DNA of 64,000 nt. Origin: Phocaeicola paurosaccharolyticus JCM 15092. GTDB lineage: Bacteria > Bacteroidota > Bacteroidia > Bacteroidales > Bacteroidaceae. The first letter of the stretch is position 1; each line of letters opens with the position of its first letter. Of this stretch, positions 32,434 to 39,344 are shown in pieces. A program made the translations under genes and the position numbers. The stretch lies in assembly GCF_000613805.1 (NCBI RefSeq), contig NZ_BAJR01000001.1:186001-250000 (forward strand). The letters are read 5' to 3'. The notes under the pieces were generated by a model. The model ran no database searches. It had not been told where the DNA came from and saw nothing but the letters and a program-made list of their open reading frames with translations.

Positions 32434-33744
32434 ATGAAAAACAAATTTACTTTATTACTTCTTTTTTTCTTTTCGTGTGCGCTAACGGTGTTCTCGGAGA
32501 ACTATCCGTATCGCAGTGATGTGTTGTGGTTTACAGTCCCAAATCATTCAAATTGGCTTTATAAGACAGGAGAAAAGGCTTCTGTTGAAGTGCAGTTTTT
32601 AAAATATGGAATACCACAAGATGGTGTGAAAGTTAACTATGAGTTGGGTGGAGATATGATGCCTGCAGACGAAACAGGGTCAATTACGTTGAAAAATGGA
32701 AAGGGAGTAGTTAATATCGGTACTATGAAGAGCCCAGGTTTTCGTGATTGCCGACTAACTGCTACTATAAATGGGAAAACTTACAAGCATCATGTAAAAG
32801 TAGGCTTCTCTCCCGAGAAACTTACACCTTATACAAAGCTTCCTAAAGACTTCAAACAATTTTGGAATGAGCAGTTGGAAATCTCTTCAAAGTTTCCACT
32901 TAAATATACTAAGGAGTTTTGTAAAGAGTATTCAACTGATAAGATTGATTGTTATTTGGTAAAACTTCAACTTAACAGCCGTAATCAGAGTATATATGGA
33001 TATCTCTTCTATCCTAAGAAAAAGGGAAATTTCCCTGTAGTGTTATGCCCTCCTGGGGCTGGTATAAAGACAATTAAAGAACCTTTACGTCATAAATATT
33101 ATACCGAAAATGACTTTATACGCTTTGAATTTGAGATACATGGACTTAATCCGCAGATGTCTAATGAAGAGTTCAATGAGATAAGTTCTGCGTTCAATGG
33201 GTCAGAGAACGGATATCTTACAAATGGTCTTGACAACAAGAATAACTATTATATGAAACGTGTTTATCTAGCCTGCACGAAATCTATAGATTTCCTTACA
33301 TCTCTTCCTGAATGGGATGGAAAGAATGTCGTAGTACAGGGCGGAAGCCAAGGTGGTGCATTGTCACTTATTACAGCTGGACTGGATAAACGTGTCACTG
33401 CTTGTGTTGCAAATCACCCTGCATTAAGTGATATGGCCGGATATAAAGCGGGAAGAGCCGGAGGTTATCCTCACTTTTTCCGTAATTCAAAGGATATGGA
33501 TACTCCCGAGAAGATAAATACAATGTCTTATTACGATGTCGTGAACTTTGCAAGAGAGATAACCTGTCCTACTTACATAACATGGGGTTATAACGATGAT
33601 GTTTGCCCACCTACAACAAGCTATATAGTATACAACCTGATGAGTTGTCCAAAGGAGGCTCTTATTACTCCAATAAATGAGCATTGGACCTCTGATGATA
33701 CGGAATATGGTCATATGTTGTGGATAAAGAACCACTTAAAATAG
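32434..33744 (+). CDS. acetyl xylan esterase-like secreted esterase (AXE1 / CE7-like)
   Basis: This 436-aa protein has a signal peptide (KNKFTLLLLFFFSCALTVFS), an N-terminal beta-sandwich of about 110 residues, and an alpha/beta-hydrolase of the AXE1/CE7-like type. The nucleophile elbow is GGSQGG, the acidic member lies in the WGYNDDVCPP region, and a late His is in YGHMLW. CE7 enzymes remove acetyl groups from xylo-oligosaccharides and other acetylated compounds. The terminal CE7 region is well kept. No xylan gene cluster lies next to it, so the substrate is open. Confidence 0.85.
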   Translation: MKNKFTLLLLFFFSCALTVFSENYPYRSDVLWFTVPNHSNWLYKTGEKASVEVQFLKYGIPQDGVKVNYELGGDMMPADETGSITLKNGKGVVNIGTMKSPGFRDCRLTATINGKTYKHHVKVGFSPEKLTPYTKLPKDFKQFWNEQLEISSKFPLKYTKEFCKEYSTDKIDCYLVKLQLNSRNQSIYGYLFYPKKKGNFPVVLCPPGAGIKTIKEPLRHKYYTENDFIRFEFEIHGLNPQMSNEEFNEISSAFNGSENGYLTNGLDNKNNYYMKRVYLACTKSIDFLTSLPEWDGKNVVVQGGSQGGALSLITAGLDKRVTACVANHPALSDMAGYKAGRAGGYPHFFRNSKDMDTPEKINTMSYYDVVNFAREITCPTYITWGYNDDVCPPTTSYIVYNLMSCPKEALITPINEHWTSDDTEYGHMLWIKNHLK

Positions 33745-33760: not shown

Positions 33761-33809
33761 AATAAAGAGAGTCCGAGTAACATTAATTGTTACTCGGACT
33801 CTCTTTATT
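33761..33809 (+). terminator. bidirectional terminator, 21-bp perfect stem
   Basis: Arms 33761-33781 and 33789-33809 are fully complementary around ATTAATT. A-rich left and T-rich right ends allow termination from both sides. It lies between the convergent esterase gene and the small membrane-protein gene. Confidence 0.85.
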
Positions 33810-33933: not shown

Positions 33934-34353
33934 TTATTCTTTTGAGTTTGGCATCTCGCTCTCCATAATGAGTACAATGCCCTCTTTCTTCTTAATTTCT
34001 ATCTTACTTCCCTCTTTCTTTAAATTGAAAGGAGATGTGTTATCACTTTTTTTATCGACAACCATAAGAACATTTTCGTCGCTAAAGCGTTTAACTTCTA
34101 ATTGGATAACAGTGTCAGGCATAATGCGGTTTAGTAATAAACTGTCATTAATGTAAATAGCCAAACTGTCATTTGCAAAGTCACCTGCGATCTCAATGCT
34201 GTATGAACCGTAATAACTCTCTTTTTTGTCTCCATCTCTTTTTAAACTGAAGGAGAGATAGAGGAAAATAAAAATCACGGCGATTACTCCTATAGCGAGT
34301 GCGCCATTGATAAACATGAATTGTTTGTTGTTATTTAAATTGCTCTTTCTCAT
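33934..34353 (-). CDS. small membrane-anchored protein of unknown function
   Basis: This 139-aa protein starts with a short basic, Asn-rich segment, then one membrane helix (INGALAIGVIAVIFIFLYLSF, about 15-35), then a periplasmic domain rich in beta strand with alternating D, S and I residues. I recognise no domain. It is divergent from the rimP operon, and I recall similar proteins at this position in relatives, which suggests a conserved but uncharacterised membrane protein. It ends toward the bidirectional terminator at 33761. Confidence 0.7.
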   Translation of the reverse strand: MRKSNLNNNKQFMFINGALAIGVIAVIFIFLYLSFSLKRDGDKKESYYGSYSIEIAGDFANDSLAIYINDSLLLNRIMPDTVIQLEVKRFSDENVLMVVDKKSDNTSPFNLKKEGSKIEIKKKEGIVLIMESEMPNSKE

Positions 34354-34397: not shown

Positions 34398-34429
34398 TTT
34401 GTGGCTCTTGTATATAATTTGTATCTTTG
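34398..34429 (+). promoter_or_regulatory. promoter of the rimP-nusA-infB operon
   Basis: TTTG (34398-34401), a 20-base spacer and TATCTTTG (34422-34429) match the Bacteroidetes promoter closely. Transcription should start near 34436, giving a leader of about 55 bases that contains the hairpin at 34451. Confidence 0.8.
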
Positions 34430-34450
34430 CGCCGAAATGGATGAATGGTG

Positions 34451-34473
34451 GGGCTTGAATAAGCCCTTTTTTT
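34451..34473 (+). terminator. leader hairpin plus T7, possible attenuator
   Basis: GGGCTT-GAAT-AAGCCC followed by seven T has the form of an intrinsic terminator. It lies after the promoter and before the rimP start at 34492, so it would stop transcripts of the whole operon unless read through. The stem is only six pairs. A regulatory role is inferred; in Escherichia coli the equivalent nusA operon leader also contains terminators. Confidence 0.6.
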
Positions 34474-34491
34474 GTTCTTAATATTTAATAA

Positions 34492-34959
34492 ATGATAGAT
34501 AAGAAAGTTGTAAGTCGGATTGTTGACGAATGGCTGGAAGGTAAAGATTACTTTCTTGTGGATGTGAATGTAAGCTCTGGCGATAAGATTATTGTTGAAA
34601 TTGATCATGCAGAAGGCGTTTGGATTGATGACTGTGTAGATCTGAGCCGTTTTATTGAATCTAAATTGGATCGTGAGCAGGAGGATTATGAATTAGAAGT
34701 TGGCTCAGCTGGAATAGGACAACCATTTAAGGTTTTAGAGCAATATCTGATTCATCTTGATAAGGAAGTTGAGGTAATGACAAAAGATGGCAAGAAATTA
34801 GAAGGTGTTCTTAAAGTTGCCGATGAGAATGGATTTACCATTACTATAAAAAAGAAAGTTAAACTTGAAGGAGAGAAACGTCCTAAAATGATGGATGAAG
34901 ACCTTCACTTTGGATATGACGAAATAAAATATACCAAATACTTAATTAGTTTTAAATAA
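34492..34959 (+). CDS. rimP: ribosome maturation factor RimP
   Basis: This 155-aa protein helps 30S subunit maturation. It has the RimP N-terminal alpha/beta domain (VDVNVSSGDKIIVEIDHAEG) and the SH3-like C-terminal domain. The motif VGSAGIGQPF corresponds to the conserved E-V-S-S/T-P-G region of the family, here with a variant sequence. It heads the conserved rimP-nusA-infB operon, and nusA starts two bases after its stop codon. The leader hairpin suggests control before translation begins. Confidence 0.93.
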   Translation: MIDKKVVSRIVDEWLEGKDYFLVDVNVSSGDKIIVEIDHAEGVWIDDCVDLSRFIESKLDREQEDYELEVGSAGIGQPFKVLEQYLIHLDKEVEVMTKDGKKLEGVLKVADENGFTITIKKKVKLEGEKRPKMMDEDLHFGYDEIKYTKYLISFK

Positions 34960-34961
34960 TT

Positions 34962-36218
34962 ATGGCCAAGAAAGAAGAAACAGTCAGTTTGATCGATACA
35001 TTTTCGGAATTTAAAGATCTGAAGAATATTGATAGAACAACTATGGTTAGCGTACTAGAAGAGTCTTTCCGTAGTGTTATAGCGAAAATGTTCGGCACTG
35101 ATGAAAATTATGATGTCATTGTAAACCCTGACAAGGGAGATTTCGAGATATGGCGTAATAGAGAGGTTGTCGCTGATGAGGATCTCACAAATTCTAATAT
35201 GCAGATATCTTTGACAGAAGCACGTAAGATAGATACATCATACGAGGTTGGTGAAGAGGTTACAGATGAAGTTATCTTCGCAAATTTCGGTCGTAGAGCA
35301 ATTTTGAACTTGAGACAGACATTGGCCTCTAAGATTCTTGAACTTGAAAAAGACAGCTTATATAATAAATATATTGATAGAGTAGGTACTGTAGTAAATG
35401 CTGAGGTTTATCAAATCTGGAAAAAAGAGATGTTGCTCCTTGATGACGAGGGTAATGAGCTGCTTCTTCCTAAGACAGAACAGATACCAAGCGATTTCTA
35501 TCGCAAAGGTGAGACTGTACGTGCTGTAGTAGCAAGAGTAGACAATAAGAATAACAATCCTAAGATTATCTTGAGCAGAACTTCTCCGGTATTCTTGGAG
35601 AGACTTTTTGAAATGGAAGTACCTGAAATTAATGACGGACTTATTACCATTAAGAAGATTGCTCGTATTCCAGGTGAAAGAGCTAAGATAGCTGTTGAAT
35701 CATATGATGACAGAATTGATCCTGTTGGTGCTTGTGTTGGTGTGAAGGGATCTCGTATTCATGGAATAGTACGTGAGTTACGCAATGAAAATATAGATGT
35801 TATTAACTATACTTCAAATATACAACTCTTTATACAACGTGCCCTTAGCCCTGCAAAAGTTTCTTCTATAGTTCTTCACGAAGAAGATAAGAAAGCTGAA
35901 GTTTATCTTAAGCCTGAAGAGGTCTCTTTGGCTATTGGTAAAGGTGGTATGAATATTAAACTAGCCAGCATGTTGACCGAATATACTATTGACGTATATC
36001 GTGAAATTGATGATGAAAGCATGGGTGAGGATATCTATCTGGAGGAGTTTAAGGATGAAATTGATGAGTGGGTTATCAATTCAATAAAATCAATTGGACT
36101 AGATACAGCTAAAGCTGTACTTAATGCTCCAAGAGAGATGCTTATTGAAAAGGCTGACCTTGAAGAAAGCACAGTTGATGAAGTGTTGAGAATTTTAAGA
36201 GCTGAATTTGAAGAGTAA
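34962..36218 (+). CDS. nusA: transcription termination/antitermination factor NusA
   Basis: This 418-aa RNA polymerase-binding factor affects pausing, termination and antitermination. Order: an N-terminal polymerase-binding domain (1-125), an S1 domain (about 130-205), KH domains (about 215-345) with the motif VGACVGVKGSRIHGIVRELR and the second KH GKGGMNIKLAS, and a short helix-hairpin-helix-like C-terminus. The acidic repeat domains of E. coli NusA are reduced, as is usual outside the gammaproteobacteria. It sits between rimP and infB in the classical order. Confidence 0.96.
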   Translation: MAKKEETVSLIDTFSEFKDLKNIDRTTMVSVLEESFRSVIAKMFGTDENYDVIVNPDKGDFEIWRNREVVADEDLTNSNMQISLTEARKIDTSYEVGEEVTDEVIFANFGRRAILNLRQTLASKILELEKDSLYNKYIDRVGTVVNAEVYQIWKKEMLLLDDEGNELLLPKTEQIPSDFYRKGETVRAVVARVDNKNNNPKIILSRTSPVFLERLFEMEVPEINDGLITIKKIARIPGERAKIAVESYDDRIDPVGACVGVKGSRIHGIVRELRNENIDVINYTSNIQLFIQRALSPAKVSSIVLHEEDKKAEVYLKPEEVSLAIGKGGMNIKLASMLTEYTIDVYREIDDESMGEDIYLEEFKDEIDEWVINSIKSIGLDTAKAVLNAPREMLIEKADLEESTVDEVLRILRAEFEE

Positions 36219-36258: not shown

Positions 36259-39200
36259 ATGACGATTAGACTGAACAAAGTAACAAGAGATTTAAACGTA
36301 GGAATAACAACGGTAGTTGAATTTTTGCAGAAGAAAGGCTATGAGATAGAATCTAGCCCTAATGCTAAAATTACCGAAGAACAGTATGCTGAACTCGTAA
36401 AAGAGTTTAGCAGCGATAAGGACTTGAAAATAGAATCCGAGAAATTTATTCAGGAACGTCAGAATAAAGATCGTAATAAGGCTTCTATCTCTATTGAGGA
36501 TTTTGACAAGCCAAAAGCTAAGCCTGAAGAGACTGTTATGACTGTTGTCCCAGAGGATGCACGTCCAAAGTTCAAGCAGGTTGGTAAAATAGATTTGGAT
36601 AGTCTCAATAAGCGCCATAGTGCTAAAAAAGAAGAGATAAAAGAAGAAGTTTTGGGAACTAAAGAACCAGAAGTGTCAAAACCTGAACCGGTTGCGTATG
36701 AAGAAGAGAAACTTGAGAAACCTCAGGAGCAACCTGTTGCTAAAGAGATTGTTCAAGAGAGTTTCGATAAGAAGGAAGAGTCAACAGAGATTGTTGATGA
36801 TAAGTCGTTACATAAGACAGTAGCAGAGACCAATACACAAGATAATAATGTATTAACTACCAATACTGAAGAAAAGAAATCCCAGGTTATAGAAATGGAA
36901 AATAAGCCTCAAGAGACGCAAGAAGAGAAAAATACGGAAGAAGTATTTAAAATCCGCCCTACTGAATTTAAATCTAAGATTAATGTTGTTGGTCAAATCG
37001 ACTTGGCTGCCTTGAACCAGTCTACTCGTCCAAAGAAGAAATCCAAAGAAGAGAAGAAGAAGGAGAGGGAAGAGAAAGATAAGCAACGTATTGAACAGCG
37101 CAAGCAGATTAAAGATGCAATTATCAAGGAGATTCGTAAGGATGATAAAGGAAATAAGCCTAACAGCTCTGATGATGATGCAAACAAAAAGAAAAAACGC
37201 ACTAGAATTAATAAAGAGCGTGTAGACATAAATTCTGCAAGCAATGCTAATGGTGGTCAAAATAATAACAGACCACACAATAATAATAACAATAACAATA
37301 AGAATAATAACAATAAGAATAATAACAATAAGAATAATAACAATAATAGCAACAACAACAATAACAATAACAATAACAGAAATCAGAATAACCAAGGTGG
37401 AAAGTTTAATAACCGTTTTAAGAAACCGGTAGTTAAAGCTGAGGTTAGTGATGAAGATGTTGCTAAGCAGGTTAAAGAGACTCTTGCCCGTCTTACAAAT
37501 AAGACTAAGAGCAAAACCTCTAAATATCGTAAGGAGAAACGTGAAAACGTGATGAACCGTCAGATGGAACAGGAGGAGCTCGAACAGGAAGAGAGCAAGG
37601 TATTGAAACTTACCGAGTTTGTTACTGCCAACGAGTTGGCTAGCATGATGGATGTTCCGGTTACTAGAATTATTGGAACATGTATGAGTATCGGCATCAT
37701 GGTCTCTATTAACCAACGCCTTGATGCAGAGACTATCAACCTTGTGGCTGAAGAGTTCGGATTCAAGACTGAATATGTAAGTGCTGAGGTTGCTCAGGCT
37801 GTTACAGAAGAGGAAGATGCTGAGGAAGACTTACTTCCACGCGCTCCAATCGTTACTGTAATGGGACATGTTGACCATGGTAAGACTTCTTTGCTTGACT
37901 ATATCCGTAAGGCTAATGTTATCGCCGGTGAGGCCGGAGGTATCACACAGCATATCGGTGCATACAATGTTAAGCTTGAGGATGGACGCCGTATCACATT
38001 CCTTGATACTCCGGGTCATGAGGCGTTTACCGCTATGCGTGCTCGTGGTGCAAAGGTTACAGATATTGCGATTATCATTGTTGCTGCCGATGACAATGTC
38101 ATGCCACAGACTAAGGAGCTATCAACCATGCTATGGCTGCCGGTGTTCCTATAGTATTTGCTATCAATAAGATTGATAAACCTCATGCTAATCCGGACAA
38201 GATTAAAGAGGAACTTGCCTCTATGAACTATCTTGTTGAGGAATGGGGAGGTAAATATCAGTCACAAGATATTTCAGCTAAACAGGGTCTTGGAGTACAT
38301 GAACTTCTTGAGAAAGTACTTCTTGAAGCAGAAATGCTTGACCTTAAGGCTAACCCTAACCGTAAAGCAGCAGGTTCTATCATAGAGTCTACTCTTGATA
38401 AGGGACGTGGATATGTTGCTACTGTACTTGTAGCAAACGGTACTCTTAATATGGGAGATATCGTTCTTGCCGGTACATCTTATGGTAAGGTTAAGGCTAT
38501 GTTCAACGAACGTAACCAACGTATTAAAGTAGCCGGACCTTCAGAGCCTGTACTTATACTAGGTCTAAATGGTGCTCCTGCTGCAGGTGATACATTCCAT
38601 GTTATCGAGACTGAACAGGAAGCTCGTGATATCGCTAATAAGCGTGAACAGTTACAGCGTGAGCAGGGACTTCGTACTCAGAAGATGCTTACTCTTGATG
38701 AAGTAGGACGTCGTCTTGCTATCGGTGACTTCCATGAACTTAATATTATCGTTAAGGGTGACGTGGACGGTTCTGTTGAGGCATTGAGTGACTCACTTAT
38801 CAAACTATCTACAGAGCAGGTTCAGGTTAATGTTATACACAAGGGTGTTGGTCAGATTTCAGAATCGGATGTTACTCTTGCTGCTGCATCTAACGCAATT
38901 ATGATCGGATTCCAGGTACGTCCTTCTAGTGCTGCTGCAAGACTTGCAGAGCAGGATGGTGTTGATATACGTAAATACTCAGTTATCTACGATGCTATTG
39001 AAGAGGTTAAATCTGCAATGGAAGGTATGCTTGCTCCTAAGGTTAAGGAAGAGGTTACTTCAAATATCGAGGTACGCGAGGTGTTCAACATTACCAAGGT
39101 TGGTATTGTTGCCGGTGCTATTGTTAAGTCTGGTAAGGTTAAGAGATCGGATAAAGCTCGTATTATCCGTGAGGGTATTGTTGTCTTCTCTGGTAATATC

Positions 39201-39344
39201 AATGCATTGAAGAGATTCAAGGATGATGTTAAGGAGGTAGGTGTTAACTTCGAGTGCGGTATAAGCCTTACTAACTGCAATGACATTAAGGTTGGCGATA
39301 TTATCGAAACTTACGAAGAGATCGAGGTTAAGCAGACTTTATAA
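36259..39344 (+). CDS. infB: translation initiation factor IF-2 (frameshifted by one missing base)
   Basis: This GTPase brings initiator tRNA to the ribosome. It has an N-terminal IF2_N domain, a long charged linker with an Asn-rich stretch (about residues 330-380), and the GTPase domain starting at GHVDHGKT (about 535-542) with DTPGHE. The first frame stops at 38154. Adding one G beside 38118 restores [20 protein letters not shown] and joins the downstream frame, which carries NKID and domains II-IV. Joined length is 1028 aa, normal for Bacteroidetes IF-2. Loss of an essential factor is implausible, so this is very likely a sequence error. A terminator follows at 39369. Confidence 0.95.
37288..37347 (+). 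repeat. 15-bp tandem repeat inside infB
   Basis: Four near-identical 15-base units (consensus AATAATAACAATAAG) encode NNNNK repeats within the Asn-rich IF-2 linker. The tract continues as AAC/AAT codons to about 37380. The in-frame unit length allows expansion or contraction without frame loss. Confidence 0.8.

Follow-up and report, generated by a model that had tools for sequence, protein, structure and literature searches.

A conserved terminator-like hairpin in the rimP-nusA-infB leader of Phocaeicola paurosaccharolyticus as a probable NusA-controlled attenuator

The rimP-nusA-infB operon of Phocaeicola paurosaccharolyticus JCM 15092 lies in a 64,000-nucleotide stretch of contig NZ_BAJR01000001.1 (positions 186,001 to 250,000; hereafter the window, in whose numbering all coordinates are given), and the subject of this work is a short terminator-like hairpin in the leader of that operon, between its promoter and the rimP start codon. 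An earlier note on this DNA had claimed that a promoter, a six-pair GC-containing stem and seven T precede rimP, and direct reading of the sequence bears out that description. The promoter, the leader elements and the genes of the operon are as follows.

34398..34401, + strand: promoter box TTTG of the -33 type, read in the sequence and matching the Bacteroides consensus
34422..34429, + strand: -7 promoter box TATCTTTG, consensus TAnnTTTG, read in the sequence and common among the leaders of relatives
34433..34437, + strand: probable transcription start region, placed from the position of the -7 box
34450..34467, + strand: terminator-like hairpin GGGGCTTGAATAAGCCCT with the rimP-leader motif GGGc...gCCC, based on sequence, terminator scan, folding and class-wide conservation
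34467..34473, + strand: T tract of seven T, based on sequence and on T enrichment 3' of the stem in relatives
34492..34959, + strand: rimP (Pfam RimP_N, 3.5e-10; RimP C-terminal domain, 2.4e-6)
34962..36218, + strand: nusA, the proposed regulator of the hairpin (Pfam NusA_N, 1.1e-32; KH_5, 1.5e-28; S1, 1.2e-5)
36259..39344, + strand: infB, in two overlapping frames, 36259-38154 and 38133-39344 (Pfam IF2_N, IF-2)

The two promoter boxes are 20 nt apart by direct reading and conform to the consensus that PMC7366714 quotes for Bacteroides, in which TTTG stands near -33 and TAnnTTTG at -7. An Escherichia coli sigma-70 reading of the promoter was rejected, being absent from the output of a sigma-70 scan, and the Bacteroidota TAnnTTTG box fits instead. 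The hairpin begins after a gap of 20 nt from the -7 box; in it the stem GGGCTT (34451-34456) pairs with AAGCCC (34461-34466) around the loop GAAT, giving six Watson-Crick pairs, four of them G-C, beyond which G34450 and T34467 form an extra wobble pair. The hairpin ends 24 nt, and the T tract 18 nt, ahead of the rimP ATG at 34492, and a leader RNA terminated here is predicted to be approximately 35-40 nt long with its 3' end in 34467-34473. A terminator scan reports the hairpin, with three listings in 1.8 kb compared to 0.9 expected, the remaining two listings being a single 20-pair hairpin at 33762-33808. Rfam places no family on the leader at the gathering score, and at E-values up to 10 only three unrelated families, the best of which (Histone3, 0.1) is on the opposite strand.

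Among Bacteroidales and near relatives, a rimP match was found in 109 of 110 loci, which gave 106 distinct leaders once three duplicates (L036, L039 and L034) had been removed. A terminator-like hairpin is present by rule in 105 of these leaders, and 103 also carry TAnnTTTG no more than 40 nt upstream of the stem. The exceptions include L051, where a stem of four G-C pairs was missed by the rule, and L007, where the locus ends before the promoter; in L093 the element is absent at the expected place under the same rule. L095 and L099 pass with stems 59 and 102 nt ahead of the start. Over the 103 leaders the distance from promoter to stem is 11-30 nt (mean 21.3, standard deviation 3.8), and that from stem to start codon is 9-102 nt (mean 24.2, standard deviation 10.0).

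The survey of the class searched for NusA in 149 genomes, 148 of which matched. Apart from the family of the window there were 62 families, and each of these except f86 and f87 was represented by one genome, 60 in all. A uniform rule was passed by 58 of the 60 family representatives, or 57 without L191, whose match falls inside rimP, compared with 4 of 60 on the reverse strand and 0 of 60 after shuffling; with L191 so treated, the element was not found by this rule in L175 (a genome of 0.5 Mb), L191 and L199. The stem stands as far as 140 nt (L237) and 222 nt (L176) from the start codon in the class. Most stems in the class are of the GAGGGGAC/GTCCCCTC kind, with GGGGAC/GTCCCC the commonest form, while AGGGGC/GCTCCT is frequent in Bacteroides and GGGGCTT/AAGCCC is found in the window's nearest relatives. 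By eye, conservation across families is limited to the promoter box, the hairpin and the tail. Of the first nine tail positions 3' of the stem, seven have a T fraction of 0.79-0.93 and two have 0.26 and 0.34, as against 0.38 upstream. Given the layout in 57 of 60 leaders class-wide and in 103 of 106 leaders from Bacteroidales and near relatives, the arrangement is not due to chance. The element at the rimP leader is confirmed as real, it is widespread in the class, and it fits a known attenuator family.

Further afield in the phylum, 18 of 20 regions have a hairpin and T stretch close to where rimP should start, a count made by eye and uncontrolled, with unsettled starts, that carries little weight; the same applies to four further distant regions, of which L242, L243 and L245 match a coarse pattern and L244 does not. 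In four distant members, L217, L219, L220 and L235, the hairpin that stands with its T near the rimP start has its arms in the opposite order (CCCC...GGGG, C-rich first), and an upstream hairpin of the C-rich-first kind is described for some Gammaproteobacteria in PMC2965389. The NusA of the window has its best matches, among named genomes, in Bacteroides and Phocaeicola (up to 93%), and one contig labelled as a Roseburia sp. metagenome-assembled genome (L057) carries a Bacteroidales-type nusA (79% identity) and is probably misbinned.

Controls on composition and on the genome of the window point to a feature of this one leader. The 56-nt window leader folds with a z-score of -2.74 relative to shuffled versions, 4 of 200 of which fold as well, and a hairpin followed by T was found in 101 of 102 real rimP leaders compared with 46 of 2040 shuffled-leader trials. 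When genes with a TAnnTTTG leader of at least 25 nt were collected from 20 stretches of the same genome and the window (464 kb), such a hairpin occurred in the rimP leader alone (1 of 82). An earlier control on the flanks of the loci (38 leaders) gave one match, which proved to be rimP of L052 with a different start codon. Furthermore, the pattern TTTG, 8-38 nt, GGGGAC, 3-8 nt, GTCCCC has matches in 75 of the 149 class genomes, in 66 of which it stands at most 818 nt from the start of the nusA match, and only 20 other places over all 149 genomes match it. This pattern represents the GGGGAC form, and the GGGGC variant of the window is covered by the control on 82 leaders; by these pattern counts the element is near-specific for the rimP-nusA operon.

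The earlier note had named an absence of 3' ends at this site together with a lack of stem conservation in relatives as grounds for giving up its proposal; the stem is kept, and with covariation, so the second part of that objection fails. Because stems were out of register in alignment A1 (built from 86 of the 105 hairpin leaders) and the model-fitted alignment A4 was ambiguous, covariation was counted at pairs outside the core in 60 distinct leaders with an exact GGGG(A/G)C...GTCCCC core. At pair -2, 51 of the 60 are Watson-Crick, compared with 18.3 expected from column composition, and all four combinations occur (G-C 23, T-A 13, A-T 9, C-G 6); sliding the pairing by one base leaves 9 of 60, compared with 11.7 expected. 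Pair -1 is Watson-Crick in 59 of 60 (49.7 expected), largely as A-T, and pairs -3 and -4 are near expectation (27 against 21.1, and 25 against 23.2). Judged on these counts, in which each related sequence is counted once and which do not give the number of independent events, there is covariation at a pair immediately outside the stem core. A covariance model, R1, built from 32 distant leaders gave 103 matches up to E 5 in 100 sources, many of them in rimP leaders and some elsewhere or on the reverse strand, and scored the window leader at 13.4 bits (E 3.9). It was unusable for finding copies ahead of other genes, as a whole-genome run returned 34 other places and no rimP leader.

The closest published counterpart is the rimP-leader, the most ubiquitous attenuator in the survey of Naville & Gautheret 2010 (PMC2965389), with a GGGc...gCCC stem. 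Like it, the Bacteroidota element is a short terminator with a G-rich 5' arm, a C-rich 3' arm and a T stretch, ahead of rimP-nusA-infB and with no larger conserved domain. In the window the stem GGGCTTGAATAAGCCC at 34451-34466 has the GGGc...gCCC form, the seven T stand directly 3' of it, and its distance from the rimP ATG falls within the 4-130 nt from the gene start, in the 5' untranslated region, that is given for the family. No larger conserved domain or antiterminator was seen by eye or with Rfam, and the stem is specific to the leader on the GGGGAC-form pattern and the 82-leader control. Unlike the published rimP-leader, the Bacteroidota stem stands at a short, fairly fixed distance behind a TAnnTTTG promoter, and its commonest form is GGGGAC/GTCCCC. 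The main text of PMC2965389 contains no word beginning Bacteroid or Flavobacter; among possible direct partners of the rimP-leader it considers NusA probably the best, leaves open whether RimP or NusA is the regulator, and cites 1985 papers for autoregulation in E. coli. In Bacillus subtilis, NusA is autoregulated through NusA-stimulated termination in the 5' leader, according to a 2025 review (PMC12288461) citing Mondal et al. 2016. In both, the 5' leader of the nusA operon contains a structure with the shape of an intrinsic terminator, and the negative feedback by NusA would be analogous, whereas the B. subtilis leader is approximately 180 nt long and that of the window probably approximately 55 nt, and the effect of NusA was found in B. 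subtilis and is proposed here. A rimP 5' element of Flavobacterium psychrophilum, conserved in Flavobacteriaceae and without an Rfam match (PMC9723704), is likely the same element, and is listed in the part of that paper concerned with it without sequence, mechanism or wider distribution. Literature searches found no paper on the element in Bacteroides, which is not proof of absence. What the present analysis adds is the Bacteroidota members of the rimP-leader family, their coupling to the promoter, and their linkage to nusA.

That linkage emerges from genomes in which the operon is incomplete or dispersed. RimP_N (PF02576) is above the cut-off in 136 of the 149 class genomes, and 11 genomes with nusA have no RimP match above it (five of family f41, three of f68, and one each of f49, f84 and f50; G144, with a RimP match just below the cut-off beside nusA, and G081, with no NusA match, were left out). 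The element lies upstream of nusA in 10 of the 11, at 31-244 nt ahead of its ATG, and was not found upstream of nusA in the reduced genome G083; the seven genomes of f41, f49 and f84 have the usual G-rich 5' arm, with stems ending 31-140 nt ahead of the nusA ATG. In family f62, infB is on a different contig from nusA in all three genomes, and no IF2 frame was seen when approximately 5 kb 3' of nusA was read by eye in G096 and G134; in G164, nusA is near a contig end, so the separate infB contig proves little. The hairpin is kept at rimP-nusA in both f62 leaders that were read (G096 and G134), and by eye no element stands directly ahead of infB in L255 and L257, while the sole terminator-like hairpin in L256 is approximately 250 nt upstream of infB, behind the preceding gene. 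On this distribution the element is linked to nusA, and not to rimP or infB. Conversely, the element is absent in all four f66 and all three f74 genomes despite adjoining rimP and nusA, and the NusA of these families is 42-45% identical to the query.

Two side observations concern these families. In L166, L174, L193, L209 and L236-L241 (f41, f49, f68 and f84; completeness at least 95%) there is no RimP_N above the cut-off, RimP being a 30S maturation factor, and nusA and infB are kept. In L246-L248 and L251 (f66) a gap of 6 nt separates the promoter box from the rimP start codon, such that the mRNA would be nearly leaderless.

The element is probably a weak, leaky intrinsic terminator, a Bacteroidota version of the rimP-leader attenuator, at which termination would most likely be raised by NusA. 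RNA polymerase would start at the TAnnTTTG promoter and meet the hairpin almost immediately; some polymerases would stop there, approximately 35-40 nt into the transcript, and others would continue into rimP-nusA-infB. NusA on the elongating polymerase would most likely raise termination at the hairpin, such that high NusA would lower expression of its own operon and low NusA would increase it. Both termination near 34473 and the role of NusA as the sensed factor are parts that we infer. The earlier note had raised feedback of NusA on its own leader as an attractive idea, and this is the best-supported reading by analogy with the rimP-leader and B. subtilis precedents; that the element stays with nusA in genomes that lack rimP or carry infB elsewhere also argues for an attenuator under NusA control.

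Several observations weigh against that interpretation. The hairpin is weak, at -7.7 kcal/mol for 34450-34466 (-9.3 including the wobble pair), and may stop few polymerases; in a sample of 49 candidate 3' terminators from this genome, 40 exceed -7.7 in stability. Leader hairpins as a group are weaker than these 49 (median -11.9 for 157 leaders, a set that omits leaders longer than 300 nt, and -17.1 for the 49), in agreement with PMC2965389, where lower stability is given as a rule for 5' terminators. Terminators that depend on NusA typically have a suboptimal hairpin or an interrupted T tract, the latter being described as their mark in B. subtilis, yet the seven-T run of the window is unbroken. 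Interruptions occur in 28 of 57 leaders of the family set and in 68 of 104 from Bacteroidales, more often than in the genome's own 3' terminators (12 of 45) though not markedly so, and are a weak sign of NusA dependence. Alignment A4 gives a covariation score of 0.264 for the structure and 0.261 when slid by one base. Within the rimP-less set, the f68 stems have 5-9 pairs and loops of 10-11 nt and lie approximately 50 nt behind the promoter box; the distances from their ends to the nusA ATG are 57, 63 and 244 nt (the last in L241). Furthermore, the rimP-less genomes may represent few independent losses. Finally, since NusA is also divergent in families that keep the element (46% in f43, 51-52% in f62), the association of element loss with NusA divergence in f66 and f74 is suggestive only.

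A bolder version of NusA control, possible but held tentatively, makes the stem a dedicated NusA sensor. The S1-KH domains of NusA on a polymerase approximately 40 nt into transcription would read the GGGGAC/GTCCCC-type stem by sequence and not only by stability, the element would have been lost where NusA itself had changed (f66 and f74), and the short terminated RNA might also act elsewhere.

Attenuation with a sensed factor other than NusA, such as RimP, IF2, NusG, Rho or the general state of growth (nucleotide levels, for instance, acting at the G-rich start and the T tract), is the least improbable of the competing explanations, though still unlikely. Any change in elongation would affect a leaky terminator placed 35-40 nt behind the start, and NusG is reported in PMC8060035 to stimulate B. 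subtilis terminators as well. Neither neighbour of nusA is needed for the element, as it is kept in the 10 genomes without RimP above the cut-off and in f62 with its unlinked infB, and the families f66 and f74 that lack it have divergent NusA; these points carry no weight against NusG, Rho or nucleotide levels. Considerably less probable is a role mainly in the completed mRNA, where the hairpin would stabilise the 5' end or control translation, with negligible termination. Its position at the extreme 5' end, only 9-20 nt from the start codon in many relatives, would suit such a role, but a stabiliser needs no T tract directly 3' of the stem, and this is conserved; the distance to the start codon also varies more than that to the promoter.

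Control of the terminator by a leader peptide seems very improbable. A 14-codon frame, MDEWWGLNKPFFCS, with two adjacent Trp codons runs across the hairpin at 34438-34482 and is present in several close relatives as well as the window, but in 43 of 103 leaders the stem is not preceded by any ATG, the other leaders divide among the three frames (24, 22 and 14), and among distant families only 18 of 51 have such an ATG; this candidate was rejected, the upstream reading frame not being conserved. There is next to no prospect that the hairpin, for all its ordinary terminator shape, belongs to an upstream gene as its 3' terminator and stands in the leader by chance. The nearest sizeable upstream frame on the + strand ends at 33744 and has its own 20-pair hairpin at 33762-33808, a minus-strand frame (33934-34353) lies between, and the element keeps its position behind the promoter in relatives; this candidate was rejected on the layout of the window. 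An attenuator governed by NusA is the reading retained.

As for the surrounding genes, the frame ending at 33744 encodes 436 amino acids, and the strong hairpin behind it is by placement an ordinary 3' terminator. The minus-strand frame encodes 139 amino acids and is divergent from rimP; a hydrophobic stretch is read near its start, and a Pfam search with it gave no match. At the other end of the operon, the GTPase domain of infB is divided between the two overlapping frames. Because IF2 is essential, this split is more likely a sequencing or assembly error than a true frameshift.

Thus, a control circuit that is known in Bacillus and proposed for other bacteria would be extended to Bacteroidota, with their different promoters. 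The rimP-less genomes and those with an unlinked infB separate the candidate regulators, and so bear on the question of RimP versus NusA in the main text of PMC2965389. Since the hairpin lies within approximately 40 nt of the predicted transcription start, the leader also offers a very small system for timing the arrival of NusA on the polymerase and for asking whether NusA reads RNA sequence.
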